NCBI GenBank assembly: GCA_964036295.1 | Contig: OZ038462.1 | Coordinates: 33,438,355 to 33,502,354 of the forward strand | DNA: 64,000 nucleotides | Direction: 5' to 3' | DNA from: Plumapathes pennacea | Lineage: Eukaryota; Cnidaria; Anthozoa; Antipatharia; Myriopathidae | Shown here: positions 12,541 through 36,155 of the stretch, piece by piece | Position numbering within the stretch: the first letter of the stretch is position 1 | How the letters are laid out: each line of letters begins with the position of its first letter | Made by a program: the position numbers and the translations under genes | Notes under the pieces: model-generated | The model's input: the letters and a program-made list of their open reading frames with translations, nothing else | Databases searched by the model: none | What the model was told of the DNA's origin: nothing

Positions 12541-14589
12541 TTACTTTTGGGCATTTACACATCGAAATGCATCTACAACATCTTGTCTCTTGATATTCTG
12601 CAGAACAAGGAAGAATTCTCGTAGTGTAAGCTGGGGTGATGTGCCACCAAGCCATGCAAACAAGGCCTTGGATGGGCCATCCCCATGCTTTTCAAATCGA
12701 CTTTGGATGGTCTGGGCTGTAAATCCGTAATGCTTTGCCACTTGTTCATAATTGCCACATCCCTTGATAGGTATGTCCAGCAAATCGCAGACACTTTCAA
12801 ATTCAAGGTAGTACTTGTTGGAAAACTCTGTCAAGGTCATTCCCTCTGCAAAAATGACAAAAAAAAAAAAAAAAAAAAAAAAGATTAACTAAACTATTTG
12901 GTCTTATATTCAAAGCCATATTATGGTAATAGTTTATTAGGACGGCTGAAACCATGTCACAATGTAACACAAGTCTGTGTTTTAACAGGATTAAAGACTT
13001 CTGCTAACTGAGGACACCACAATGACTATAAATACACATTCAAAGATTGTCAGTATGTCATCAACGTCTTGATATATCCAAACATATATATTTCATGGAA
13101 ATTACAGGCAAATAAAACTAAAATAATATTATCATACACTGATCAACTATATTTAGTTGACTTACCGTATAAAGAGAAATGGTTGGTGCGTGATTATTAG
13201 ACTCCTTTCTTATTTACAAGCTAATCCTAAAGGCATTATTTTAGTCTAACTGCTTCTCCTGCATGCTTCTAACCATTGATTTTTGTAGAGAGTGAGTATT
13301 TTCACATACCGTTAAGGAAGTGTTGCCCAGCACAAGTGCACACTGTCATTAGAGGGCTTTTTGCCTGAAAGAGTCATAAAAAAAGCTGTAATAGTTATTT
13401 CAAAACTACATTATAACATGCCAAAAGTCAGACCGACTGCAGATTAAAAACTCACTTGTAGATTCTTTAATGAGGCAAGGTGTCTCATGGAGTCTAACTT
13501 TGCAGCTGGTGAGAGAGCAAAGTGAAGAATGTTCATTATCATTGAAGATATTTTCCAAGTTAAAGTCAATGTACTGATCACTGCCACTTGGGGGTGGGGA
13601 CACTTGAATAAATCTTGTTCAAGGGGGCTCCACCCAGATTTTTAACTTTTTTAAAATTAAAATATTTTAACCCTTGTTGTTGAAATAGAAATGACTTATT
13701 CTATAGCTCAGGTAAAAACTATGTTTGAGTGCAGAATGCATATGGTATACTTACAGGAAATAAAGGCAAGGTCAGATCTTGTAGTAAAGGCACTTTGACT
13801 GCCATTTCCATCAATCAATATTCCCAGCTCTGTTCCACTCATTGGATCTATGTTCTGCCCACTTCTGTTATAACAGCATCTTATATACACTGCCAGTACC
13901 ACTATAAGAAAAATTAAAACAACACCCAAAGCTGTAATGAAAACTACAGTTGTGTTTACAGTTGCGTGTTCGGTTGTTGCTAATTTTCCTGCTGTGGTGG
14001 AGCTGGTGGCCAGGGTTGGTACCAGTTCTGTAGTATTAGCTGTCTGCTTGTTTATGGGCACTGCTGTTGTTGGTGCTGTTGACCATGGGGCTGGCTTATT
14101 CGTCGACTTCACGGTTGTTGGCTTACAGCGGTATTTATGATGAAAACTACAGCTTCGTTCCTCGGGCATCCCTCCGTCTAGACACTCTTTCTTCACCGAA
14201 TCGATTGCTATCTCTCCACAGCACCAGGAGCATTCCTGACAGTTTCCTGTGCTAGTTTCGTGATACATTCCATTGCCGCACTTCACACCACCGCATTTCT
14301 TGTCAGCTGTTACAGAACAGTTGTACACGACCACTTTTTGATCAGGGCAGTTAGTTTCAGTGCATGGGTAACATTGAAAAGTGTCGTTGGAAGAGGAAAA
14401 TGTTTTTCCATGAACGCAGTCCAGGCAATGTACGTTCTTAACATCATTAGCTGATATATTCGTACCACAGCGATGACTCGGTTCTTGTCCGGGAGGACAA
14501 AACGGACAGTCTTGGCAGTCGGTGGAGCCATTAGCATGTTGTACTACAAACTGATCCAGCAAACATTTGTTGCTTCCTGAAGCATTCCC
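12541..14589 (-). CDS. TNF receptor superfamily death receptor A
   Basis: Three exons close in phase: 13755-14589, 13456-13602 and 12541-12845. The first encodes the ectodomain, with cysteine-rich repeats (QDCPFCPPGQEP, CLDCVHGKTF, CYPCTETNCP, CQECSWCCGE), a Thr-rich stalk and a membrane span (VVFITALGVVLIFLIVVLAVYI). The second is a cytoplasmic linker. The third is a C-terminal death domain (CGNYEQVAKHYG, KALFAWLGG, IKRQDVVDAF). Such receptors bind TNF ligands outside the cell and recruit death-domain adaptors to trigger NF-kB or caspase signalling; that role is inferred. The 14589 border has a good acceptor (TCTTTTTCTTGGAAACAG), so a signal-peptide exon is expected upstream. The in-frame extension to 14697 has no ATG. 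About 428 codons are seen. It is paralogous to receptor B at 33369, with the same phase-1 junction into the death-domain exon. Confidence 0.88.
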
Positions 14590-14651
14590 CTGTTTCCAAG
14601 AAAAAGACAACAGCAGTGAGACAACAGTAGCGCCAATTTTACTAAGAACAT
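14590..14651 (-). other. Signal-peptide-like ORF out of frame with receptor A
   Basis: An ATG at 14651 opens MFLVKLALLLSHCCCLFLGN, an excellent secretion signal that runs directly into the receptor A ectodomain but one base out of frame at a GGGG run (about 14586-14589). Either the true signal exon lies upstream and splices to the acceptor at 14589, making this coincidence, or a base is missing in the G run through assembly error or mutation. Confidence 0.4.
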
Positions 14652-14759
14652 CAGATACCAATACTGGGAATCTAGGGAGAATAGACCTAACGCCCAAGAA
14701 TAATGGACAATGCCTCTTTTGTCAACGCATACTGGAAATATCATAACTGGCACTGGCAT

Positions 14760-16375
14760 ACCCTGCGAGCAGAACCTCCTTCACTCTCTCTACGTTGAAA
14801 CCGAAGAAAAAAGAAGACTCTGCCAACGAGCTCCACTTTCTCCGTCACGCGCGAGACCTCTCGACTCATCGATAACAAACGATTAATACGGTGGTATGTG
14901 TGCGGTGAGTAAAAGAATTCCGAAAATATGATCTTCGGTCCTTGTCATCGTCAGAAATTGAATATTTAGCCGCCACATGACCTCTTATATTTCGACCTTT
15001 GGCATGAATTTACAATCGACCTGATCACGGAAAGAACATTTCTTGCTTCAACAGAAGTTGCAGTAAAGATGAAGTAATACGGGCAACATTTTCAGTGCAA
15101 CTTGTCGCGCAACAATGTTGCGTTGCAAGTTGCACCGTAATATCGCGCGTGTTACCACTATGATGCACGTTGCAGCAACATGTTGCACAAAGTAGAAGTG
15201 GTTTCTACTTGATGGATTTTCAGCTATGCCTTATATGTGTCACCGAAAAACTGTCAGTTTCTGTCAAGAGAATTTCAGCTGTCCGTGAAAGGATGACCAT
15301 GTTCGAAACGAGTAATTGATGTCGATCGATCGGTGGTTCGACGAGGTGAGTACAATCGACTGGTACAAGCTCAACAGAAGTTTGTACTTTGACAATGTAA
15401 ACTGCTTTCGAGATGCTCGAGTGGAGTTCAAAAAGGAAAAAAAAAGACAGACAAACATTAGGAAAAAAAGTCCAATGACCGTATTTTACGGGGGTTGCGC
15501 TAGTACAAAAATAATCCGTTCCCGGCCCATAATACGTCACAGTGCTCTGGCGCGGTTATTAATATATCTTGATTGGTGCCATTTCGAAATTGTCGCTAAA
15601 GCAGTCTCGAAAAAACTTTCTGTGTCAATACGGAATACTCCTGCGAACATAACAGACCAAACAAATATCGTACTTCGGCTAAAGGACCAAAAACCTGAGA
15701 AAAATACATCAATGCTGAAGTATCCCCAAAGCTGGTTGTCAATGAATCCCCACTACAAAACTGTATCGCAAACAGCTCTGCCGCTTCTAGAGTAGTCTCG
15801 ACAAAATTTTCTATGGCGACACGAAATACCCCCAAGAACTATACTAGACTACTAGCAAAACTTTCTTCTTGCAAAATTGAGTGAACAATGGGACATAATT
15901 GGAAGAGATGAGAACAAGGAAAGTATATAGAGTTCTCTAGGATCCGCCATGATCAAGACAAAACTGACTCAGCTATACCCTGCCTATATGTTTTATACAT
16001 ATAAATGCGAAGCGTCTCGCGGCTCCGGGTGTCCCTTAGGCTCAGTCCCCAGTCGTCGGTTGTTCGGAGCCTGCAATCTTGACGGCTTGTTACGTTATAA
16101 ACTACACTGCTTGTTGGTATGTACGTATTATATAAAATTATAGAACTTGTAATGGATAAAAAGCCTCTAAATTTACTTCATATAAAACAAATCACCGACC
16201 GCCTTTTCCCGCGCCCCTAAATTTGATTCAATTTCACATATTACGTAAGCACTTGTGTAACCTCACTTAAAAATAAAATAAAATCCTTCTTTAAGTGAGA
16301 CCATCTAAAAGCTTTCGCGCGAAGGTAGCAGACTCACAACGCAGACCATATTTATAAATTATTTTTTACGTATAC
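14760..16375. other. Non-coding stretch between receptor A and TNFR-like locus C
   Basis: No further cysteine-rich repeat is visible on the minus strand, so locus C has no obvious downstream exons of its own here. The motif ACCGTATTTTACGGGGGT near 15479 recurs in variant form near 32470 and 51320, marking a dispersed repeat. A TTGC/GCAA-rich palindromic patch lies at 15095-15200. Confidence 0.45.
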
Positions 16376-17437
16376 CTGTGGTGTCGTAAGTTTCAAGTTT
16401 CCGCATCGCAATGCTTCTTTCGGGGAAATTTCTGTGCCACATTTTGTGTTCAACTGTTGCTCGTTAGGACAAAATGAGCAGTCCAAACAGTACTTGGAGC
16501 CGTTACCATAGTTGATGGTGAACTGTGAAGGCTTGCAATCTTGACGGTTTGCCATTAGTAGAAATACTGAAAAATATCGAAACTATTTCAACGTTTATGT
16601 GACAAGAAAGTTTCCAAACAAACAAAACCAATACATGTAAGAACGAAAGAAAGAACAAGAAAAGAAAGTCAGACCAGCGCCAACAGCCATATGGGACCCA
16701 ATTACATTTCATTTTCGCGAGGTGATGAGTAACTAATACTGTGTATGTTATATGTACGGATCGTTCGGGCGAGAGTAGTCTTCAAAAAGACTGTTGGAAG
16801 TAATGTTTTGTAGGCCTGAGCGGAGTAAAAATAAAAGACGCGGTTTTCAAGATTTGTTAAAAACCAAGTGCTAATTTTTTAGACGTAATTTGTTATTTAC
16901 GTAAACGTACAAAATTTACGCTACCAGCTCGACTCACTAACCTGAAGTTGAGAGCACAGCAGAAGCTCCAAGAAGAATCCAACAAAGAATACAAAGGCGA
17001 GATAGTATCCAACAACGTGTGGGTCGCTCCTTACGTTCTCTCTTGTTTTCATGAAATATCTTCCTGTTTTGCTCTTTTTCAATTTCTGGCTTCGTCTTAT
17101 TTGATACCGACCCAGATAGATGCGTTTCATAACCGGAAGAGTCCTCACTCTTGATATGAGATGTGGTGTCGCACTTTCGTTGTAAAACTACTGGGCTTGG
17201 AACACGCATTTTCTTGCTGGGACAGAAATCCGTATTGATTCCATATTTATAATCTTTCTTAGGTATCACTCGACCTGAAGTAGATTCTTCAACTCGAGGG
17301 CAGATTGTATCAATCTCAGCAATGGACTTTGCGTTGTAGGACAATTCTTGGGTACATGGCGTACAAACTTCAATGGGACGAATTGCTTCCAAATCCAGGT
17401 GAGCGAGCTTGCAGCGTGTCGATGGAAAATTGTCCAT
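16376..17437 (-). CDS. TNFR-like locus C: cytosolic-type N-terminus, membrane span and one cysteine-rich repeat (partial)
   Basis: Two minus-strand exons fit in phase. Exon 16942-17440 begins MDNFPSTRCKLAHLDLEAIR and runs 165 codons, mostly charged, to a hydrophobic end (CWILSRLCILCWILLGASAV). Its donor is CAG/GTTAGTGAG. Exon 16376-16566 continues in phase 1 with FLLMANRQDCKPSQF and one TNFR-type repeat (NGSKYCLDCSFCPNEQQ, KCGTEIS) very like the first repeat of receptor A (NGSTDCQDCPFCPPGQE, RCGTNIS). It ends at a phase-0 donor (CAG/GTATAC). If both exons belong together, the repeat lies C-terminal to the membrane segment, a type II arrangement unusual for TNFRs. Alternatives: two unrelated gene fragments, a decayed paralogue, or an upstream alternative start for receptor A. 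A second frame also gives a membrane-like end (AFVFFVGFFLELLLC). Confidence 0.5.
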
Positions 17438-17440
17438 ATT

Positions 17441-18753
17441 CTGAAAGCAAAGGGCATACGTCAGCAAGCGAGCTTAAAAATGGACTTTCTTTTTTTTTTT
17501 TTTTTCTGGGTCGAGAATCAGGACACGGTGATTGGTTCATATTGTCACGTGATATGCAATGACGTAAATTGACTTCGCAAACGACTTGAGAGTTGGGCTA
17601 TTGAACTGCTCGTTACTTGTGTGTGAAAGTTAACTGCATCTTTTACGTTATCTGTGTTGCTCAAGCTTTACGTAGAGGCACACACAACAATGTGTATTGA
17701 ACAAGAACTGTCTTTTTAATGTTCATCTGCCGAGTACATACAGTTGACTGATGTATCGGTTATTGTAGTCTGTTCATGGCATGCTGATCATTCTAACTAT
17801 CACGATAGGATTATGTTGCGAATACGATACGATACTAAACGGCTATTGTTGTAATTGAACTGCTAAATTATTTAGTCCCGACGAAACTTTCTGTGGCAAC
17901 ACGAATACTTCTGGGAAGATAACAGGCCGAAAACCAAAGCTACAAATGAGCTTTTGCCGTAAAACAAAAGTGATCTATGCTTTACACTGTACATGACATA
18001 AATGCTTCTGCTTATCGTACATTGCCTGTTGAAATGTTTCTTCCATTCGATCTTGTAGCCATTGTTTCGCAATGGTCATTGTATATTAGAAATGAAAAAT
18101 ACGCCGAAATAGTCCTGAGCATTGAGTTTGAAGTCACAAATGGACTGAACACGCTGTGAACAAAACCGCAATAACATTGTAAACAGGTCTTGTGTTGGGC
18201 TCGTGGAAGCACGAATACTTGAAAGCTTGATTAAAAAACAAGACAGACTAGTATTGAAGCGAAGGCTGGATTAATCGTGGCCTTAGAATTAAGTGTTCGA
18301 AGTCAAACTGTCGATTGTGCATAAAAAGACAAGTCACGCATTACTCAGGTTTACTCGGTGGCCAACCGTTTCGCTTCTAAGCTCAAAATGCAGAGTCGCT
18401 CAACCTTTAAGAACCAAGTGTATGGGTGTTGTAATGATAAATTTATAGTTTAATAAAGTTTCATTTAAGCAAGGTGTCAAAAGTCAAGTTCTCTATAGTG
18501 TGTGATATATTTCTGGTGAGAAACTGGAAGTCTCTCGGGAGTTCCGCTCTTGTCCCTGCTTTCTGTTTTAGTTTATTCTGCTCTCGACCCAACTAACACC
18601 GCGAGCTCACTGGCAACGCCAGTCTAGTTTTTGTTATAGAAGTACTACAAGAGAAGAGAAGTGCGAAGGCCGGAACGACACAGCTCTAAATTTCCAAGTG
18701 CTTTTAAATCTCATCATATTGACGAGATGTTGGCTGATCACACTTTGTGGTTC
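17441..18753. other. Non-coding stretch
   Basis: Only short shadow frames are present. A poly-T run at about 17490-17506 abuts locus C. I see no gene or structured element. Confidence 0.45.
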
Positions 18754-19283: not shown

Positions 19284-20467
19284 TAGTCTGTGACTTACAT
19301 ACCTCGTGAGTGTACTGGGTTACATTCCTACCTTGGCTTGAGTCTTTCTCCACTGAAGCGCAAAATATCAGGAATGGTTATCCCCATGGTCAACAGATAC
19401 AAGCAAATAAACTATACTTGGAATCCTTTTTATGACATAGTTGTGATCAGATAAAATGCCATCTAAGTGCACTTATTTAGTATAAGGACGTTCACAGTGT
19501 CATTATGGCGTGACTTATTTGTTATTCTGTTTCCTGTGGTCTACCAATTTTGGTTTTCTGGCCAAAATTGAAACTACTTAGGGTGGTCACTCTCCTCGAA
19601 TCATCCTGTCAAAAGGTTCGAGTAATTGTTAGTCAAAAAAAATATTCCAGGATTTTCCACGATTTAATTTGAAAGAGTAATGACATGAAGATGGTGTGGA
19701 TGTTTGTAAACGAGAATAGATACTTGCATTTCAAAGGAGAAGAATTTAATCTGGTGAATTTGCAAAATTGTACAGAAAAATTATACGTGTATAGGTACTG
19801 CACAGGATCCATTCTGGTATTAAAGTATTTCCCGAGTTATTGTATTGTTTTTTTGTTTTTTGTTTTTTTGTTTTTTTGCTTTTTTAATTGTCAAAATAAG
19901 CATCCTTGGACTTCTTCGTGTTAAATAATCTCACAAATTTCTAGTCTGTGAAATGGCTGTTCGGTTTTAATGACAGTGTGCAAGCTCTTAACGATCTTTT
20001 CTCGTAAGTGTTTATCAACTTCTGCTTCAGATCTAAGCCGATGTTGCAGATACCCAAGCAGAAGACATTTATGGTAACCAAACTAGGCTAAACCAAATTG
20101 ATGTTTATAAACAGGAACAAAGTTTCACAAGTTCTCACAGTATACTACACAAAACGAAGCTCTTCTAGTTCAATTTCAACATCCAGCAATTAACTTAGGC
20201 AGACGTTTTGGAAAAAATTGGTCTTTTAGAGTTCACATTTCGTTGGAGTGGCCATATCAACGAGGTAAATTTATAAATGAAAGAGCCTGTCGGGATTTGA
20301 AAAAGTGGTCGTTGGTCGAATTAACGAGGTGGTCGGATTAATGGGTTTTCAGATCAGAAAATGAGAGATTGAGCGTTTGTCCGTGGCAATAATAAAGAGC
20401 TGGCCGTAGGTCCAAATACGATTATCAATATTCGTTACAATACACTATAAATTTTAGAGAATTAGAT
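19284..20467. other. Stretch downstream of the NB-ARC gene
   Basis: A TTTTTGTTTTT low-complexity run lies at about 19846-19886. I found no convincing exon on the minus strand that would extend the NB-ARC gene beyond 20468, but short exons could be missed. Confidence 0.4.
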
Positions 20468-23400
20468 TTAAAGAAACGCACCTTTGTTGATCGTACATGT
20501 CTGACTGGAATTCAGCCGTCTCGAGGTAACAGAGTTGTTGTCACCATACAAATCATCTCGAGTGACCCTGGTATACGTGCTAAACCAAATTAACGGCTTA
20601 TGTTGATAATATCCGTTTGAGGTCGGGTCGTACTCTACTAAACCTCGGCTCAAAAATCTTTGTAACGCTTCCTCTACGACAAAGTTCTTGAAACCTGACA
20701 CCCTGGACACATCATACGCGGTGAACTCGTAGTTTCGGACCAGATCGAGGTAGCCAAAGATTCTTTGATCCTGATGAGAGAGCCTGTGCAAAGAATAGGA
20801 AGCCGCTTGAAACAAAACAGGATAATCAGCATGCTTCCAAGACCCAGCTGAACATTGCAACTCTACTGTAAGGTCAGCTGGTGTGGTTCCATCTTCCTTA
20901 AGTGCCCTGGACAACACGTGGAGAGCAAGGGGCATGAAGTCGCAGAGCTGCCCAATTGTTTCTGTCTCACAACGCTGAATGTCAGGTAAGTACAGTTTCA
21001 TCAAACTGTGGGCGTTGCCAATGCTGAGTGGCCCGAAACTTACTGAAGATGCAAGACAACCATCAGGGAAGCAAAATGATTTCGTAGCTGTGCACAGTAT
21101 TTTCACATTCTTGTTGCTCTGGACCTTAAGAAGCATGGAGGAAAGAAGGTCGCTCTCCGTTGCGGTTGGCTCATCACGTATTAGATTGTCAACGCCGTCG
21201 AGAATAAAGAGGGTGTCTACGGAAATGATACTTAGACGATGACACGCCCGCCGTACAATGGCTCTCACGTACAAGTCCTCTTCATCAGCATCCATGGTGC
21301 AGCGTTTATAGCCGATTCTTCCAAGGATTGCATTGGCAAGGGCATCCAGCGTTTTGGCATTATCACAAGGAATATACGTGACCGTGTGACCTTCAGAAAG
21401 GAACTTATTTCCGACAATACTCGCCACGGCGGTTTTACCGAATCCGGCAGGAGCTGTAACAGTGACCAGCCGATGTCGCTTCAGATTGTTGATGATGCTC
21501 AAAAGTTCCTCTTTGCGACCAAAATGTAGCTTTTCAGGTGGGAGACTTCTCGTCCCTTGGTTTTTCCCTTTAGGCGGTAAAGCTGAAATTAAAAGAAGCA
21601 GTGGAGACCAAAATTGTTAAGCCTAATTTGTAACAGTGCATATCCATCGTTCTGCTGTCAAAAAGACGACTAGCTCTATCTGCATGTACTACAAATAACA
21701 TTTCTATATTATCCCCTTTTTTCTCCTTCTCCCTTTCTTGGTTGTTTGTGATAATTTATCATTGCAGTGAGGAGAAATGTCGTGGTATCTCTGATGGATT
21801 ATGTTTTTGCCAACTTACCGTTCAATTGATCACTTGACTGAGACCACGTTTTAAGCGTTTGCTTCACACGGATTCTGTTCTTTTAGATTTGGCAGAGGTA
21901 CAGAATCTTTTGCAGTGGACGTTGCCAGCAAACCAAAGTTACCCGGCTGCCGTTTGACGACAAAAACTTCATGCCTAAAATTACGCTTGGAATGATTTTG
22001 CTATAAAGGATATCCGCAATTGTAAAGTGTTGAAACTTGTTTTTCTATCCAGTGATTTTCACTGTCATGCTGGCATAGTCAAATATTTCGTGTAAGTGTG
22101 CCTGAAATTGTGCATTGCCTGTGCCTCATCCGTGCTCAAGTCTGTGCCTGCCTTATTTTGCCTTTTGTTTTAGATCTGGACGTCATTCTCTTCTTGTTCC
22201 TCTATTTGTGCTTATATGATTGTTTCTTAGTCGGTAACTATGTTCGTGAATGCATGAACCCACTCGTAAGATGATTCACTACTATACCTTGTGCACCTCC
22301 TAGCCATCCCTGGATAGAGTCCCCATCCCAGTTTTCTTGACTGCTGATGCTTGTGGAACTGACACTCCTCCGCGTTCCTCTCGGTGATTCCGATGTACTA
22401 CTGTCAACATCTGCATTGTAGCTCTGATCATCATCTAATAATTTCAGTTCACACGTGCACCTCAGCTCATCACCACTGAAACCTAAAGATTAAGAACGTT
22501 TATAGCTTTTGTAGTACGATTAGAATTGAAGCTGGTTATACTTTGGTATACGATTACGGCCGGGGCAGAAATCAGGGTTAGGGATAGGGTTAGCATTTTT
22601 ACGAGGCGAAGATGTTACCTTCAATCTTATCGCAACATGTGAATAGGTGCCTCTTTCCATGTTAAATTCTCGTTCAAACTAACTGAAAATTTACTAAACG
22701 CAATATACACACTAGTTCTGGTCATTAGGGTTATTTATACGAAAGAAAATAAGCCGCGTCTTACATAGGCCGCAGTTTAAACAAGACGTGCGAACAGACC
22801 CATGTACGAGTACGGCTTACACAAGACGCGAACTGCTCGTATAAATGGTTCGCAGCTTCACGTCCAAGGTAAGCTGCGGCTTAGATAAGAACAGATCAAA
22901 ACCCCTGGGCCGGGATAAGCCGCGGCTTGTGTAAGCCGTGAACGTGGAGTTCGTGCCATTTGTACGAGGTGTTCACGTCTTACGTAACCGCGCTTACTTT
23001 CTCTCGTATAAACGGCCCTAATATAAATATTTCACAAACCACCTTCTGATTCGTATTGTTCAGCTGCTCTTGCCAGTGCTTCCCAGTCCACTTCATCATC
23101 TTCACTCTCACTGCTGTCAGTGTTGGGGCAAACCCTGTCGTTTATAAACAACATGACAAGAACAGAATCAGAGCTAACACGTAACAAAAATATGTCTATG
23201 TATGTGTACTGTCGTGATTTGTAATAATCGTCGTGATTTGTAATACCTGTCGTGATTTGTAGTAAACTTGTCGTGATTTGTAATAAACATTGACGTAATT
23301 TCAACAATCTATCAATGCACTTTCTTAAGTATCTTGGAACAAGGTCATGGTCACCATGTCACGAGTCTGCGGTGGGCCGGAAAAAGGAACAGTAGGAGAT

Positions 23401-26400
23401 TGAACTGAGTGTCAATCGTTACTGGCGTTATACCGTAACTGCTTTTAGAATAAAGCTCAGTGTGAACTCAGACTAATTGCAATTGAATTTTTCTAAAGAG
23501 ATTGCTCCGCCAGGGTGCCCGCTTACGGGAGCTTAAAAACAAGAGAAAAATTGAAATATCACCCCTTAAAAGTGTCTGCGTCCGCTTACGGGAATGTGTA
23601 AATAGAGAGTTTGAGCGAGGGTTCAAAAGGCGTCCGTAAGTAGAGCTGTCCTCTTACGAGCGTATCCTCCCAGAGAGCTTTGGTTGTATTACAAAACATC
23701 AGTGATTGATTGAACTCGATTAAATACAACCAGAAACCGGCACCTGGAAGGGTACCAGAGGCTAATGTCGGCTAATGTCGCGCCCATTCTACTAACAATC
23801 GGCCGGCATGACAAGCCTCTGGCCGCAAACGCCAATGACAGAAAAAAAAGGATAAATGCAATAAATTGTACAAATATCTACTCTTCTTGGGTGCCGTAAT
23901 ATATAGGGTACTTAGATAAATTCCTACTAGAAATACGATAACCGCAGATACCCCCTCGCTCTGGCGACTATTACTTTGGTACTGCTGAACTTACTGAAGT
24001 TTTGATGCAATCATTTCCTTGAAGTCAAGTGCTGCACGCACAGAAAGAAGAGAAATATGGTGTGTGTCATACTTTCGCGTTGAAAGAAGAATCGATTGCG
24101 TGACGCCGTACGTATTTCTCACGGTCGACATACCAAATTAATTCATGCAGTCTGCAGGGCACATTCTCAAGCATTTAGTATTTGAATTGTGAAGTTGGTC
24201 GGCCGCCGTAGTACGGGAAAAAAAAGGAACACTGATTTTCCAGTTTTGAATTCATAGGCAGTACAATTAAATAGGCTTTCTGTGCGGTTTCTTTTCTTTG
24301 CATATTTAATGAGCGAGTTGTTTTCTATGTGAACCCGCTCAAAACAGCGTGATTTCTCCCAGAATCAAATTAAAATTTAAACGGTTTACTTCAAATTATA
24401 CATGGGCTTCAAATCTAATCATACTTCAAAAGGGCTTGTGAATGATTCTCGTTGCAATAACCGCTTGTCATATTGCAGCACTTCTCGAATAGACAGTTAC
24501 ATTTTTAATCTTGAAAGAAAAACACACGTCTGACTAAATTATTTAAAACCCCAGGTTCCGACTGCTCTGAGCTAATACGCTAGCCGAAACTGGCGACAGA
24601 AGCCGGTATTAGAACAATACTTCGAGAGAAAATGATCAACATGCAGATTTTATTTTTTTCTTGAAGTGATCGGGTCACAAGATACTGGATAGAATATAGA
24701 CGGCGTACTTGCAATTTTGCCCGCTTTTTCTCCTGAAGTTACCAGTTCCCTTTCAAGCGGTGTTCTGTCCATGTCGCTCTTGATCAGCATTCATGCGTAG
24801 CTGTTCACTTTGCGGAGTCGTTTCATCGGCACGATTCTGTTCACGACGCTGTCGCCCACATGAATGTCCTCTTTTCTTGAGTCGGAATTGACTGTTCGAT
24901 CGTTTCCACGATTGCCCGTGTTCCCTTCTCTTTTGAAGACGAGATTCGCGAGACTGTTGTGTTTCCAGTCTTCCAGTTTTCAAATTCGTTTTCGTGAATG
25001 CAGTACAATATTGTTGTTTCGTTCAAATCGCTTTTGTTTCTGTCGGTAACGCGTGACCGATCCTTTGTGAGGTGCTCTCACTGCATTCTGGACTTGCTCA
25101 TACGCCAGACTTACTGACAGACTAACATTAAATTTCGAGATAGCGACCCGTTTGGAGTCTCCAAATAAGGCGATATTACTGCATTAGCGTCGTGATTATT
25201 ACCCTCGCTTGCGCTCGGGGATGAATAAAGTTCCTCAGGGGCGAGCGGACGTAAGAAGGTCAGATGTCTCAGACTAGATTGTTTATCTTGATAGTAGGTT
25301 CACCGTCTGTATTGTCACGCGCGGGAGCTTCACTGTAAAATGTAATGTCAATTTTCCCACCATTACGTGGCTGGATTAAGTCACCGGTGGCCGTGCAATA
25401 AGGCACCAAGATACTTAAGAAAGTGCATTGGTAAATTGTTATTACAAATCACGTTAATGTTACAAATCACGACAGCTTTTTTAAATTACAAAACACGACA
25501 GAGGTGTATTACAAATCACGACAGCTTTTTTATTACAAATCACGACAGGTTTATTACAAATCACAACAGGTATTACGAATCACGACAAGTTTATTACAAA
25601 TTACGACAGGTATTACAAATCACGACGATTATTACAAATCACGACAGTACAGTATGTAACATGTATATTCAGTTTATGTATGATGTATGACGTGCACATT
25701 ACAGAAAATAAGGGTAAGTGTATTAAGAACATACATATACCTTTTGCGTGTCTTCTCTAATAGTTTAGCAAGCCCTGCGTTATTGCTCGCTTTTGCAACG
25801 TCTTCAATCAAGGGATATTTCCCTTCAAACGACTTCATAGCAATTTTTCCAGCTGAAGTACGAAGCACAACCTTGAAAAAGTCGACAGCATTCATTCGCG
25901 CTGCAGTATCCACCAGCATTCGGAAGAACACTACACCTCTGACTCTTCCTTTGTTTGTAAAAGTCCCTGCAAAAATGTATAAACAACGCACAACGTACAC
26001 ATTACTTCCTTTAGAATGATACGTACGAGGTATGAGTTAATCCATAACAGCTGTAGGAGGTATGTATTCACTGTAAAATAATCTGTAGCTCATTTGCAAA
26101 CCAACATCTTTTGAAGCAAGAAGGAGCTGAAATCAAGCGTTCACAGTGAAATGTACGCATGTTTAACTGTGGAGTCCGTGTAGTCGTATGTCATTCGCGT
26201 GTACAGCATGAATAAATATACGGCACACCAACAGTTGCTGGCATACAGTGTGCATCATTTGTATGAGGATTGCAAACTTTACAACTGCAAATATACAGTA
26301 TACTGCTATTAATTATAGCGGTATGAGAAAATAAGCTATTACCTTGTTCTGTGCTGTATGAACGTCCTTTCTGTTTGTTTCTGTCTGCGACCCTCCTGAA

Positions 26401-28221
26401 GGTTTTTTTGTGATTCCTAACCATGTTGGTGACCTTGTTTTCAAGCATGGAGGCATCGATAGCATTGTACCTATACGTTCCTGTCCCAATTAGATGTCCA
26501 TCAGTTTTGAGAAGAACAGACACCACACCTGGCTTCGTAACTCCTGTATAATTACAAAGAATTTAGCATCAAAACACACATGACAATTCAATCGTCCAAC
26601 ATGCGATCGACTACACAATTAAACAGAATGATACAGGGGCCGGGCGGAGCGGGTAGTTGGGGGTAGGGTCAGCACCTTCGTACATTTGTGCGGGGAGGAG
26701 CCGTCCAGATTTCAAATCCAGCTCACCCCTTCAGTCGAAATAGTGACCCTTTTATATCTGGCCGTGACCACCGTCAGTGCAGCAATTTAGTGAGTTATAT
26801 TGGAGACAGTCGCTCTGTTCTTTCTGTCATCATGCTAAGAACACGGTGAAAGCTGAGTGAGTGAATAAACTGTGTTGCGAGAAGTCAATCAATTTCTAAA
26901 ACTTGCTGACATGTTGCAAAACAGATAACTTCCCAAATGTCGCATGCAATGGTCTGTCACACCACAAAAGCCCGTCGCACTGTCTGTGGGGTTGAAAAGA
27001 CTCTACACCATCACCATTACTATACAAACTGGTGCTCTTGCAATATTTGCACAGAAATGGCATCGCTGAAGAGTGGATTGAAATTTAACATCGCTTACGA
27101 TAGCCACGATCGCCACGATTGTCGAATAAACTGAAGTGATTGCATGGATCACGATGGTCATATTTTTCAGCAATTGTAACAATCACACGATCACATAGAG
27201 ACCGGGAATTATGTGTATGATGACATAGCCACATGGTAATACTACAAACCTGGAACGGAGTTTACTCGAAGAAGATTCGGATTCTGCTTGACGGTCGGAA
27301 CTTCCTCACAGTCACCAAATGTCGCAAAAGGAGGATCCATTCTAATAACTGGCAATGGGGTCTTCAATTCCAGATAAGCTGCATTTCCACCCTGTATGTA
27401 ATTCATTATGAGTATTCATTACGGAAGTTCAAACTAGATCATTTATATTCATTTATGCATAGATATTGGTGAAAACTTCAAGTTAGGATTGCCGTACAAA
27501 GCTTACAAGTTTCCAGCTCCTGGCCAAGTCTCGAGGTTTTATGGGCGGCAGTAAAAACTTGAATTTGCTCTCTTCTCTAATCTCGGCGCAATGACCGTTG
27601 GCTGGCGCAATAGGTTGATCACAGAACCGATATTGTGTATCTCTAGCTTGACTGCTATTCGTGAATACTTCAACTTACCTCCATTGGTCCATTATCTGGC
27701 ACAATGTGAAACCTTTCGACAAGTGTTGTTGAAATCCTGTCAAAGTCGGTCATTTCGGCATCGCCTGAATCAAGTTCTTCAACGGCACGACAAAGCTCCT
27801 TAAAACAAAAATCAACTCCGTAAGAGACCTGATCGCTTATGGATCGAGTCACAATTAAATCCATAAGTTAATATGCTTGTCCTTCAGATCACGCGTGACT
27901 TGTATCTGCTGCTAACAAAGCTACAGAATTAGTCCTCTTACCTCGGATTCGTCTTCGGTTAAAGCCAACATAAACTCTACAAAGAAATCAGATTATAGCG
28001 TAAATGTTAGTTAAGCTTCTATACAAAACGGGTCATTTGCTGGGAAAATTGCAGAGAGACACTAAAAAGAACATTCACACTAATCTGCTGATATCCCATT
28101 CACACATCCCCCTACGCCCGACCCCTTATGACTTACCTTGAACCATATCGCGCATGTTAAATTCGCTGCTGTCTGTTTCACTGTCAACAGTTTCACTCCC
28201 AAGTCTCGGTTTGTGACAGTC
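20468..28221 (-). CDS. NB-ARC ATPase protein with IPT/DBB-like and ankyrin-like modules
   Basis: Nine exons close in phase: 28137-28221, 27942-27976, 27679-27798, 27250-27391, 26343-26543, 25741-25966, 23040-23134, 22288-22482 and 20468-21582 (737 codons plus stop). The last exon is an NB-ARC domain: LPPEKLHFGRKEEL entry, P-loop (APAGFGKT), Walker B (TLFILDGVDN) and a GLPLA-type FMPLALHVL motif. NB-ARC proteins are ATP-switched scaffolds of immune and death signalling. Exons at 27391 and 26543 give PPFATFGDCEE and GVVSVLLKTDGHLIGTGTYR, resembling the Ig-like (IPT) fold of BCAP/BANK-type DBB domains. The exon at 25966 ends KYPLIEDVAKASNNAGLAKL, like their ankyrin-type repeat. Acidic linkers join the modules. 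The DBB assignment is by pattern only. A GTGCGT donor near 20480 could allow extra 3' exons. Confidence 0.72.
22724..23022. mobile_element. MITE in NB-ARC gene intron
   Basis: Ends ATTAGGGTTATTTATACGAA and its complement (TCTCGTATAAACGGCCCTAAT) are about 30-bp inverted repeats. The interior repeats AAGCCGCGGCTT and CTTACACAAGACG motifs in both orientations. It sits 18 bp downstream of exon 23040-23134 on the gene strand, close to the splice donor. Confidence 0.75.
23209..25647. mobile_element. 2.4-kb non-autonomous transposon with tandem-repeat-loaded long inverted termini
   Basis: Both ends begin CTGTCGTGATTTGTAATAAT and are flanked by TA, fitting a TA target-site duplication. The left arm (23209 to about 23345) holds about four CTGTCGTGATTTGTAATA units. 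The right arm (about 25404-25647) holds about ten in opposite orientation, including degenerate ones. Both arms finish with the same unique 25 bases (around ATGCACTTTCTTAAGTATCT). The interior has no transposase. A minus-strand basic frame at 24753-24983 (SRESRLQKRREHGQSWKR) is of unknown meaning. A fragment similar to the 47927 element (GTCCGCTTACGGGAATGTGT, about 23579) is nested inside. The element lies wholly within the intron between exons 25741-25966 and 23040-23134 of the NB-ARC gene. Confidence 0.75.
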
Positions 28222-28616
28222 CTGTGAAGGGTACAACAGGCAAAGAGGGCATTAAACAAAGACCTGTATGCAAAATCTAACAGTCTGAGGTACCTTACTA
28301 ATAGTATAGACTCTACGTTGATTTGAGGCTAGTGCCCATATCTCGCGTGCCATGCATTTGTCCTACCTCAAAGTTCTCACGCTGTCCTATGCTCTGCGAC
28401 GACCGAACGGAGCCTAAAGTTGAACGAATAGGAATGGAAAAAATGGAAAAGGAATGTAACACGACCTGTCAACATTTGTCAACTGGGAGGGGGATTCTCG
28501 GTCACAAATTCGGAAACTTTTGCTCTTATAATGCGAAGGCCATCCCCGAGTTTTACGTGCAATAACTGAAACAACAAAGATGAAATACCTCAGGCCTCTC
28601 GCCGACAATTTCTCAC

Positions 28617-30241
28617 CTTCTCCTATGATCATGTCGTCACTGTCAGGAAGAGAGACCAAAGAAGTGCTCCTTTCCTGGTTAATGTCTCCAGTTGCTGCAC
28701 TTTCAAGTCCAGGATCATTATTGAACTGTGAAATAAGGACAAGGAAAAACTGTAGACGAGCCAAAGAAAACACAGAAGGAAGCTACCTCCAAGCCAAAGC
28801 ATGCATGTGTTCATTTTTTCAGAATTCGGCGCTACCAAATAATTCGCTTAAACCAGCCATGCTGCCACTAAACTGACACAGATGGATTCCCCTGGCAGTC
28901 TTTATAGACCCTGATGCGTGAACATCGATGCATGGAGCACCCGGCCCCACATAGAAACGAGAGGAGGAACTTACAGGTACGAGGTACAAGGCAGAATTTC
29001 CTGGTGCAGCCCGACGGATATTCCTCCCGGTCCATTCACGATCACATTCATCCACATTTTGACACTTTTTGTGACCAGGACAGAAATAGAACTTTCCTCC
29101 TTGTCTTATGGCAAATTTAAAGTTACTGTTGAAAAGGAGCAGCTCATTAGTACTTTTTATCCAATTTCCCTTTCGCCGGTATCCTCTGGCTCCCGATGAA
29201 ATGTCAAAACTCGACTTAACAGTATAAATTTGACCGACCAGTATCATATCTTGAATGAGCACGAGCTCCAGACACAAGGCCTAAAATATAACATTCAGCG
29301 TAGCTATCTGTAAAGTTAGGACAGTGACTTCTGCATCTTATTAACGAAATGCACGTTTGTAAAACAAAACAAATGAATAAAGAATAAATCTGCCAGGCCG
29401 TACTGATAAGTGACGGAAGAGAGAGCGAGAAACTCCTTATGGGGATATTAACCGTGTTTTTTGACTCTAAAACAATTCTACATCTTGCTTCACAGCAAAC
29501 TGTCCATTTATTGCCAAGCAATTACAACTTCAATAGGTCCTGACCTGCGGAAGCGTCTAGAACAAACACATGTACCGCAAGCTGTTTATGTCATCACTTC
29601 CGGCTTTTCAGTCATGTGACTGTACGAGTCCCAATGAGTAAATACACAAAATAACTGCAAACTCAAACACATTTTACACCACACTGTGTTAAATCCCTCA
29701 GTTTCTGCAGCTTTAAAACGGCAAGGTCTTCGCAACACCTATTTGCTTTACTCTCGTTAAACAGAAGGCCTAATTTGCTCCACTTACATGTGCATTCCAG
29801 AACAGTCATGCCGCATGCATTAAAACTGCGAAGAACTGTTTCGATTCTGTCCATACAACACAATACAACACTTATCAACCTGTGCCGCCCACAATTCAAG
29901 GGTGGAACGCTTGGCAAATATGCGCAATCTCACCTTGCATTCCTTAACCTTGTTAACCTGGAAGCAAGCAGCTCTCTGACGTCTGCCTCCGTCATGGACT
30001 CATCGATTTGAACTTTTGCTGCGTAGCACCCCTTTTCCCGCCTCCGTATAGTTGCAAGTTGCGAAAAGTTCGGTGGGTTCCATATTGCGTCTTCGTGCAG
30101 AAGAGTCACGTTAATCTCAAATATATTTTCTGATTGTGCCACATTTTCTCCTGGTCTCGCGTACAGTGTACTTCCGTCGCTTGTATCAGAGACATCCTCT
30201 GTGCCATTTGCCAAACCGGAATCACTGCAGTTCTCTTCCAT
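28617..30241 (-). CDS. Probable N-terminal exons of the NB-ARC gene (unrecognised domain)
   Basis: Exon 29934-30241 starts MEENCSDSGLANGTEDVSDT and encodes about 102 codons, including FEINVTLLHEDAIWNPPNFS and a basic YAAKVQIDESMTEADVREL stretch. It ends in phase 2 at a good donor (CAAG/GTGAGA). A possible next exon, about 29795-29861, would read IETVLRSFNACGMTVLECT in phase. Exon 28975 to about 29262 or 29280 encodes IYTVKSSFDISSG through KFYFCPGHKKCQNVDECDRE, ending at CCT/GTAAGT. Exon 28617-28725 (NNDPGLESAATGDINQERST) is acidic like the later linkers. A small exon near 28371-28388 would bring the phase into 28221. I do not recognise the fold. Continuity with the NB-ARC exons is inferred from strand, spacing and style. 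These exons may instead be a separate gene. Confidence 0.5.
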
Positions 30242-33368: not shown

Positions 33369-36155
33369 ATGTCGATCCACGTCGCTCTTGTGGCCGTCCT
33401 GTTCATAATTCTGGTGAGTGTCCGCGGAGATTTTGTTTACAGTTCACAGAACATTGAAGCTGAATTAAAGATATAACGAGGAAATCTTGAAAATAAGAGG
33501 CTGACTTGCGTGACATTTCTGCTGTGTCATCATCACGTGAAAGTCATGCTGAGATTGCCGACTGTCTCACGCAACTAAAGAAGAACAGCTATTTTCTGTT
33601 TCCAAATTTGAACTGTTTGTAAGTATACTGTAAATCGTGGCGAATAGATTACTGAATTTTCAATGAAAGTTTCAAAGTGACCCATGTCTCCGTTGTCCAC
33701 GTGCATTAAAATGTATAAGTCGAAGTAACGTGGCGTACAACTACGAGCTCTTTGTGGCATACTAAACTATTCATCAAGACGCAATATGCTCGATTTGAAA
33801 TTTAAAAAGATAACAGTTTCTGTATAGTTTCTCTAGCGGATATCTGGTTCATTAAAAACTCTAATAGGAAAACGCCATCTGCCGTAACATAGCACCGGTC
33901 TGTAACGACTCACAGTTCAATCACGAGGTTAATTGCTCATGTCCACAAATAACTCCACATCGAACCTCAGTCTTGACCGCCCACTCGGTGAAATAAAAAA
34001 AGGTATGTAGTAACAACCGAAAACCAATGTGTAAATTGTGCCTCTTTATGTATGCCTGACATGCTCAAAGATTTTAAATTGCCACTCTGACACACCTAGT
34101 ACTTATGTCAGTACTTATATTATCGGGTTTCAGTTGTATTAGTTAGTCTCCATATACAGTCGCTCATCAGTTGCTCCGTAGTGTCTTTTTACCCGCCCAC
34201 CCATCCCTATTTAGCCATTATATTATATCTTCGGATGGGTGGCAGAGGTTTAATTTCGCTGGTTGCGTTTCAGCGCTTATTTTTCTTTTGTTGTATTTAG
34301 CCTCAATAAACCTCTCTCTTGACCCCAGAAAGTGCGAAAGTGTGGTGTTCATGTGTTCAGGGGCGGGGGGGGGGGGGGGGGGGGGGGGGTGAATTAATTA
34401 TACTGATTACCTGATTTCATTTATACGCCGCCTTCAAAATTGGCTGCTTACAATAGGTAGTCACTCATGGAAGTTCCACAAAGTAAGGAAAGTGATAAAT
34501 CTGTCAATAGAGCGATCCGACGTGTTTTGGTTGTTTTCAACTGTTGTCTGAAATTTTTAGTTGCAGGAGGTCAGACCCTTAAATCCGTGCGGTCATGACG
34601 AGATCTTTTGGCAGACTACAAATCCAGCAAACTATTCGTGTCTCCAATGCCCGACGTGCCCCGAGGGAGCCGAACCGTCAATCATATGCGGGAGCACAGT
34701 GGATTATGGGACGCCACTGCACTGCGTTCCGTGCGGGACTGGCACCTACTCAGACAAGTTCGACACCAACCCCTGCCGAGTGTGTACCATCTGTCAAAAA
34801 CAGCGCTTGAAAAACTGCACCCGGACATCCAACACCGTCTGCACCAAGAACTGTCAAGCTGGGTACTACGAAGACTTTGTGTTCAGATGTGTACAGTGCC
34901 CAAAGTGTTGTAAAGTTAACCAGCAAGTTTCTGGGTGTGAAAGGAAAGAATGCCAAGCATACTACTCTTGCCCGTCTGAGCAGAGTACCGGCGCATCTAC
35001 CAACAGTGACGCAGTATCCACCTCTCCTACTCCTCCCTTAGCCTCCACTACTGACGTAGTTTTCACCTCTCCCACCCCTCCCTCAAGTCTCGAGGAGCAA
35101 CGCGAGTCTTCGGAACCCACTGCAACAAGTAAATTCCACGGAAGTAAATCAGCACTGCAGCTCCGGACGAACAGCGCATTTCCCGCCAGGAATATCAGCC
35201 TGTCGAGCACCGAGAGGGCAGAACAGTCGTCCAGACACCCTCCAAGCACCAGGCCCTGGACAAAGCTGAAGTCCCAAGTCTTGAACAGCACGAAAAGTAC
35301 AACGCGTCACTTTATAGAGAACACAAACATTTCATTGCCTTACGTCGCTATCATTTCGTGTCTTGCTCTACTGCTGTCGATTTTACTAGTGTGCCTGATG
35401 ATGGCCTATCGATGCCGTCGCAAAGAAGACCCAGGAAAGTCCACAGAAACTTGTAACGACGAACAAGGAAATACGTCTAGTTCTGATAACGAACACGTGG
35501 TTTTGTCAGAAAGGAGTGCATCAGCCAAAGCTGACGAGACGTCCGCTACACTCAGCAATGGTGACTCAAGTTCTACTGGATCATCGATGGTCACTGCTAA
35601 CGAGCAGTTACCTGCACAGACGGCTCTGATTGTTGGCAACAAAACAGAGAACACTGAATCCAGGAACACTACTCCGCTAACCGGAATTAAACGTAAGTTT
35701 CCTCACAAACATACCAAAGGAAAGTTCTGAGGAACGCATATAACAGCGACTTCATATCGCTTTTGAGTGAACAGGACTGATGTGTATCTGCAGACTTCGC
35801 TGTTTGTTGTTGGGTGCTCTGACTACTTTAATTTCTTTTCTCAGATAAGATGACATTGTCTGTTTTTGCTGACAAGGAATACAGTTCCTACGAGAAAGTG
35901 TGCGAGTTGCTAGATTTAAAAATACCAGGGTGTGGCAACTATGAGCACGTGGCAAGGCATTACGGAGTAGACAACTGCACCATCAAGAGCCGCTTTGAGA
36001 AGTACAAGGATGGACCATCTAAAGCATTGTTTGAATTGCTGATGGCTGATAAGCCCGAGTTAACTGTGGGTAAAGTTATTGAAGTTTTGGGGTCAAAAAG
36101 AATCAAAAGAAATGATGTCGTAGCCATATTTTTGTCAGGTAAAAGTGAAAAATAA
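33369..36155 (+). CDS. TNF receptor superfamily death receptor B
   Basis: Three exons close in phase to 493 residues: 33369-33413 (signal peptide MSIHVALVAVLFIIL), 34567-35692 and 35845-36155. An upstream acceptor at 34561 would add Leu-Gln in frame. The ectodomain has about three cysteine-rich repeats (CLQCPTCPEGAEPSIICG; CVPCGTGTYSDKF...CRVCTIC; CQAGYYEDFVFRCVQCPKCC), then a long Ser/Thr/Pro stalk with two near-repeats (VSTSPTPPLAST and VFTSPTPPSS). A membrane span (YVAIISCLALLLSILLVCLM) and a Ser-rich tail follow. The last exon is a death domain (CGNYEHVARHYG, KALFELLMAD, IKRNDVVAIF). The predicted role is a type I death or NF-kB signalling receptor for a TNF-like ligand. It is a paralogue of receptor A in opposite orientation, and lies tail-to-tail with CCDC22. 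Confidence 0.93.

Follow-up and report, generated by a model that had tools for sequence, protein, structure and literature searches.

Organisation of the fusion gene

The stretch of DNA analysed here (the window, 64,000 nucleotides of contig OZ038462.1 of Plumapathes pennacea) carries on its minus strand a gene in which a module apparently related to the signalling adaptors Dof, BCAP (PIK3AP1) and BANK1 is followed by an exon for an NB-ARC-type ATPase. On balance we favour the interpretation that this is an intact gene of 12 exons, in which a TIG(DBB)-ankyrin scaffold of the Dof/BCAP/BANK kind has had its C-terminal exons replaced with an NB-ARC ATPase exon by phase-1 exon shuffling. The first-pass annotation, made from the sequence alone, had described nine minus-strand exons (E1-E9) between 28221 and 20468, and this was confirmed: their phases fit, all nine have an AG acceptor and all but the last a GT donor, and together they form a single frame of 736 residues that closes with the TAA stop at 20468. 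The exons of that range stand but its 5' limit does not, since three further exons with fitting phases extend the gene to 29280. The resulting 12-exon frame comprises 890 residues with no internal stop, and its first in-frame Met is at 29247; the splicing of this model is predicted, and the 5' start of the gene is uncertain.

The candidate first coding exon, N (28975-29280, minus strand, as are all the exons below), is open and ends in the donor GTAAGT in phase 0, fitting exon A. Its only match in a Pfam scan was DUF5415 (E 0.18), and a search of the coral's own genome at E≤1 returned nothing but the exon itself, the next match having E 3.8. Exon A (28617-28725, GT/AG) is an acidic and Ser-containing linker entered in phase 0 and left in phase 1; exon B (28367-28413) is entered in phase 1 and left in phase 0. 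Both, like exon N, lie outside the range first annotated. All three are supported by the fact that the 5' phase series 0-1-0-1-0 matches, as read by eye, that of the exons following the N-terminal domain in a relative elsewhere in the genome (L029, C5:23.870 Mb; see below). An exon starting at 30241 (MEENCSD...) was considered as the first exon and rejected, because, read by eye, its phase does not join up simply with the following exon.

Frame and splice sites define E1, a linker rich in Ser and Asp (28137-28221), the linker E2 (27942-27976) and the linker E3 (27679-27798), whose end lies directly ahead of an Ig-like domain. The first half of this domain, which is related to TIG and DBB domains (alignments A1 and A5), is encoded by E4 (27250-27391), and the second half, together with the sequence after it, by E5 (26343-26543). 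There follow the ankyrin-like exon E6 (25741-25966); E7 (23043-23134), an acidic, Trp-containing exon that is kept in relatives (compare the L029 exon NTDQDDNIGDINWQELRHAVN); the Ser-rich linker E8 (22288-22482); and E9 (20468-21582), which houses the ATPase and its winged-helix region. A short additional 3' exon (EVDKHLREKIVK..., 19921-20021, minus strand) is possible but weak: it was read by eye, finds no support among the relatives, and needs the donor-like sequence AACAAAG/GTGCGT at 20481, just ahead of the stop.

The 2.6-kb intron between E6 and E7 had been singled out as a place where two genes might part. It contains a dispersed repeat (23209-25647, outer limits inferred, absent from the product) in which a TGTCGTGATTTGTAATA-type unit forms inverted arrays at either end. 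A 1-kb piece (24300-25300), the only query used in a repeat search that scored 40 of 4,468 first-look candidates, gave 54 matches in the genome, the long ones mostly 86-91% identical. Because this repeat accounts for the length of the intron, the distance gives no reason to suppose two genes, and a division at this point was dropped.

The C-terminal ATPase exon

The motifs by which NB-ARC had first been recognised in E9 are all present in the sequence and its alignment: Walker A (APAGFGKT, 21431-21454), Walker B (LFILDGVDN, 21185-21211) and the GLPL-like MPLAL (20921-20935), all on the minus strand. In alignment with its paralogues E9 retains these three and also the winged-helix His. In Pfam, E9 matches AAA_22 (34.3 bits) and NPHP3_N (29.4 bits), both over cut-off, and, sub-threshold, the winged-helix-type family TrmB (22.9 bits). 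Its closest match in the genome (E 8e-22) is L014, a locus broken by a stop; the best intact locus follows at E 5e-21. With L014 left out for that reason, the remaining 13 of the 14 ATPase loci extracted from outside the window each have one open frame and align by blastp with at least 56% of E9 at 26-31% identity. Twelve of these 13 overlap PF00931 (NB-ARC) matches, the exception being L025, and two paralogues checked in Pfam proved to be NB-ARC plus TPR proteins. By eye, all 13 paralogous exons begin, as E9 does, at a putative phase-1 acceptor some 40-50 residues ahead of Walker A.

Against this must be set that E9 is itself missing both from the 56 matches of PF00931 in its own genome and from an hmmscan up to E 10, and that it has lost the sensor-1-like Arg present in most paralogues (LCTATK in place of LCTTR). 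An AlphaFold model of E9 alone was useless, with a predicted local distance difference test score (pLDDT) of 34.6. The assignment of the C-terminal half to NB-ARC thus stands on descent and fails on the family's own Pfam profile; judged from the sequence relationships, descent of E9 from NB-ARC is nonetheless almost certain.

No Pfam match was obtained for C-terminal sensor repeats (LRR, WD40 or TPR), the stop coming directly after the winged-helix region, and none for a death-fold, TIR or HEPN effector in the N-terminal part. Between E9 and the next gene at 17.4 kb no repeat exon was recognised by eye, a region in which no profile search was made. Since neither a sensor nor a death fold was found, the case for a classical NLR is weakened.

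The N-terminal module and its paralogues

Searched as one piece, the N-terminal half matched no Pfam family up to E 10; cut into pieces, it gave sub-threshold matches only. When the entire protein of 736 residues was searched against PDB sequences, only chance matches resulted, and the bacterial genomes and viral contigs scanned contained no stray relatives of the module. The search of the coral's own genome with the whole protein was more informative, in that E6 weakly matched three other loci (E 1e-4 to 0.002; 30-36% identity), around each of which lies a gene with an identical order of exons: two Ig-like halves, then an ankyrin-like, an acidic and a Ser-rich exon. These genes are at C5 23.870 Mb (L029/L030), C5 23.897-23.908 Mb (L045 with L031/L032) and C2 33.018 Mb (L033/L034). 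The protein of one of them, used in turn as the query, recovered the other two and the window (E 2e-4); besides one match at the level of chance, it also listed a fragment at C2:33048757 that contains a stop (E 1e-3). The fragment (C2:33048757-33048921) resembles the ankyrin-like exon of the family and is probably a pseudogene. E4-E8 thus have counterparts in three other genes, with identical phases at every boundary that could be resolved; the splice sites were picked by eye, and the boundaries compared do not include the acceptor of E6 in L033, that of E7 in L031 or those E7 and E8 acceptors cut by locus ends. Because E4-E8 have these counterparts and E9 matches other ATPase exons, the nine-exon frame is more than a chance assembly.

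All three relatives differ from the window gene at both ends. An N-terminal domain of about 110 residues gave three matches in the genome, each at or upstream of one relative; the search found it neither in the window as a whole nor upstream of the gene there, and neither Pfam nor a PDB sequence search recognised it. No ATPase of the relatives was among the 44 matches of the whole-protein genome search, and their 3' exons look, by eye, repetitive or otherwise unlike E9. The paralogues therefore have the form of an N-domain, then TIG/DBB-like and ankyrin-like exons, then, in at least two, repetitive exons; in one, a hydrophobic stretch near the end (L030, about 930-1020) recalls the membrane-tethered Spt23/Mga2. 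These three free-standing genes, with their uncharacterised N-domain, constitute a second lead.

Relationship to the DBB family

Over the whole genome PF14545 (DBB) scores above cut-off at only two sites, C1:1400535 and C1:1478894, which are near-identical copies (99% over the DBB-ankyrin region) of a Dof/BCAP-like gene. The copies (L046, 1.400 Mb, minus strand; L047, 1.479 Mb, plus strand) lie in opposite orientation about 78 kb apart, and represent either a recent duplication or an assembly artefact. The DBB domain of this gene scores 54.9 bits in Pfam; its ankyrin exon is sub-threshold there but finds ankyrin proteins in the PDB at E 6e-6.

The structure of this gene can be compared with that of the window family. 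Three successive phases, into E4 (0), at E4/E5 (1) and at E5/E6 (1), are common to the Dof-like gene and the window family, and in alignment A5, which was built without regard to introns, the E4/E5 intron interrupts, in all five rows, the codon that immediately follows an invariant Pro. Beyond the ankyrin exon the phases diverge, being 2 in all four family genes as against a candidate GC-type donor in phase 0 in the Dof-like gene. Comparison of the family and Dof-like profiles with hhalign gave a score of 25.9 for the ankyrin part (probability 58%; shuffle maximum 17.3) and 26.6 at full length (shuffle maximum 21.1), and in neither case did any of 200 shuffles score as high. Profile A1 showed a resemblance of E6 to DARPin caps at a whole-sequence E of 0.002, with no single stretch passing.

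For the Ig-like domain the evidence centres on 6SWS, the structure of the BCAP DBB. In PDB searches the Dof-like DBB alone matched only 6SWS (14.1 bits, E 0.43), and when the four family rows were added 6SWS came first of three matches (17.1 bits, E 0.051). Residues 45-111 of 6SWS were scored at 12.4 bits by the four-row family Ig profile, as compared with a maximum of 6.7 among 200 column shuffles (195 scored), at 15.0 bits by the three relatives without the window, and at 13.4 bits by the Dof-like row alone; this scoring is not fully independent, a caution that tells against it, as the family rows had been aligned with the Dof-like row and the segment was that row's own match.

Several other results argue against a DBB origin. 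DBB, TIG and Ank gave no Pfam score in the window protein, and in pieces of the relatives none of these, nor TIR, came over cut-off. The window's Ig row alone scored -0.2 bits on the 6SWS segment, and a PDB search with the four family rows alone (A6) did not return 6SWS, listing instead one unrelated chain at E 0.12. In hhalign the Ig part alone reached only 11.2, a value attained by 86 of 200 shuffles, and the full-length probability was low (12.5%, E 0.0023; 9.5% and 0.0034 in a repeat run). AlphaFold gave a poor model of E6 alone (pLDDT 57.5). An HMM search of the predicted protein for DBB, IPT/TIG, Ank and NB-ARC, proposed at the outset, scored none of them, and only the AAA_22 and NPHP3_N matches in E9 rose over cut-off. 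The original likening of the N-terminal half to the Ig-like and ankyrin region of BCAP and BANK holds by way of relatives and shared introns, and not for the window protein taken singly. On the strength of those relatives and intron positions, we consider that E4-E6 very probably descend from the DBB family as a diverged DBB(TIG)-ankyrin module, of whose family the window copy is probably the most diverged member.

A further proposal, that the protein might connect PI3K/TLR-adaptor architecture to NLR-type signalling, was not supported. The Dof-like gene carries YVDM, YIDM and YHYM motifs, read by eye; the 736-residue model contains no YxxM, which weakens any role in PI3K docking, and no TIR was found in it by Pfam.

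Origin and possible working of the fusion

The simplest history would have a phase-1 NB-ARC exon of the NB-ARC-TPR kind inserted after the phase-1 donor of E8, with loss of the TPR part, and the fusion probably arose by phase-1 exon shuffling. As to its working, the TIG domain would bring molecules together in pairs, which is what the BCAP DBB does, and a partner would be held by the ankyrin-like helices; the NB-ARC/winged-helix switch, by binding and exchanging nucleotide, would then build these pairs up into a larger assembly in which the partner is concentrated. Because no C-terminal sensor repeats were found, the signal would enter through the N-terminal module or the partner. From the known roles of the parts, such a working, with an ATP-dependent switch controlling a DBB-ankyrin scaffold, has about an even chance of being right; the replacement of exons, dimerisation, ATP switching and any immune role of the fusion are all inferred.

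This account presupposes one gene, and the evidence that E8 and E9 belong together is good but indirect. In all four family genes examined the donor of E8 is in phase 1, and E9 offers the matching phase-1 acceptor 705 bases further on. If instead a DBB-ankyrin gene stopped after E8, or continued into unseen 3' exons, and E9 formed, together with a short first exon of its own, a second and truncated NB-ARC gene, one could readily understand why the three paralogues seem by eye to carry different 3' exons after E8, and why both NB-ARC paralogues checked were NB-ARC-TPR proteins. E9, however, has no Met upstream of Walker A, and none of the 12 ATGs in the 705-base intron opens a first exon that would end in phase 1 at a GTRAG donor, the only donor type scanned. 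From these sequence features we judge a pair of genes unlikely and hold with high confidence that the fusion is a single gene. Slightly less likely again is a decaying or unexpressed fusion whose frame is open by chance: the lost sensor-1-like Arg, the missing TPRs, the intronic repeat and the high divergence would all suit it, but 890 codons free of stops and frameshifts, AG and GT sites throughout, and the retention of Walker A, Walker B, the GLPL-like motif and the winged-helix His would not.

A different reading of the same fusion makes the N-terminal module a bait: the protein would be an NB-ARC receptor with an integrated copy of a signalling scaffold that pathogens target in the host, following the integrated-decoy logic known from plant NLRs. 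It would fit with the persistence of free-standing paralogues of the module beside a fused copy that seems the most diverged, with the fall in the score of the family profile on the BCAP segment from 15.0 to 12.4 bits when the fused copy is included (the relatives were not scored singly), and with the finding in the window of neither the relatives' N-domain nor any other sensor domain. The N-terminal position is, on the other hand, the usual place of an effector, and we know of no animal precedent for an integrated decoy; a bait is improbable, if marginally less so than two genes. In its most specific form, an NB-ARC switch would have captured a Dof/BCAP-type scaffold copy by exon shuffling, the free-standing paralogues of that scaffold would remain functional in the cell, and interference with the scaffold by a pathogen, a symbiont or a receptor signal would trip the ATPase; such an animal integrated-decoy receptor we rate as a long shot, on a par with the two-gene model. 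Preferring the scaffold placed under an NB-ARC switch, we note that, if expressed, the gene would exemplify clearly how phase-1 exon shuffling can produce a new STAND protein, relatives of both parents still being present in the same genome. It raises the testable question of whether a receptor-proximal adaptor can come under the control of an ATPase switch of the NLR type, and might reveal the way in which new immune receptors are put together.

Comparison with known systems

Like the adaptors of PF14545, the window gene has a TIG-type Ig domain followed by an ankyrin-like exon, and with the Dof/BCAP-like gene of its own genome it further shares three intron positions and, in the family profile, similarity to 6SWS; unlike them, it lacks a Pfam DBB score, YxxM motifs and a Pfam TIR, and bears an NB-ARC-type ATPase. 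The same order of TIG and ankyrin repeats is found in yeast Spt23/Mga2, NF-kappaB p100/p105 and CAMTA. To our knowledge none of these has an NB-ARC, and unlike NF-kappaB and CAMTA the window gene contains no Rel or CG-1 domain that Pfam could find. The BCAP DBB has been described as a TIG fold that forms a dimer, and the TIG folds of p50 and CAMTA1 are compared with it (PMC7128310); Dof proteins bearing DBB and ankyrin have likewise been described from cnidarians (PMC7260276). The resemblance of E9 to cnidarian NB-ARC-TPR proteins, which are NLR-like, lies in its phase-1 start and its identity to the 13 loci, and its difference from them in the lack of a TPR match, the failure of PF00931 and the DBB-ankyrin N-terminal part. 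NB-ARC-TPR is the usual NB-ARC type in corals (PMC10236652).

Coral NLR-like genes show many domain combinations (PMC10236652, PMC8260672), and PMC8260672 counts 35 Pfam domains that occur together with NACHT in cnidarians, DBB not being named among them in the part consulted. IPT, in the portion of PMC6321704 consulted, concerns NF-kappaB. In the open-licence literature of PubMed Central (PMC) no report was found of a DBB domain together with NB-ARC or NACHT, in agreement with the initial remark that no protein joining a DBB-type adaptor to an NB-ARC switch was known to have been described, and the combination of DBB/TIG-ankyrin with NB-ARC seems to be undescribed.

Neighbouring sequence in the window

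On either side of the fusion gene lies sequence resembling TNFR-type receptors. The adjoining gene (12541-17473, minus strand) combines Cys-rich repeats of the TNFR type (TNFR_c6, 25.9 bits) with a hydrophobic segment and a death domain (16.7 bits), both domain matches being sub-threshold, and on the other side a second TNFR-like receptor exon (34561-35730, plus strand; TNFR_c6, 25.0 bits, sub-threshold) is likewise accompanied by a hydrophobic segment. Near the start of the window, an open frame at 1291-2403 on the minus strand looks by eye like a reverse transcriptase, and is probably part of a non-LTR (long terminal repeat) element.

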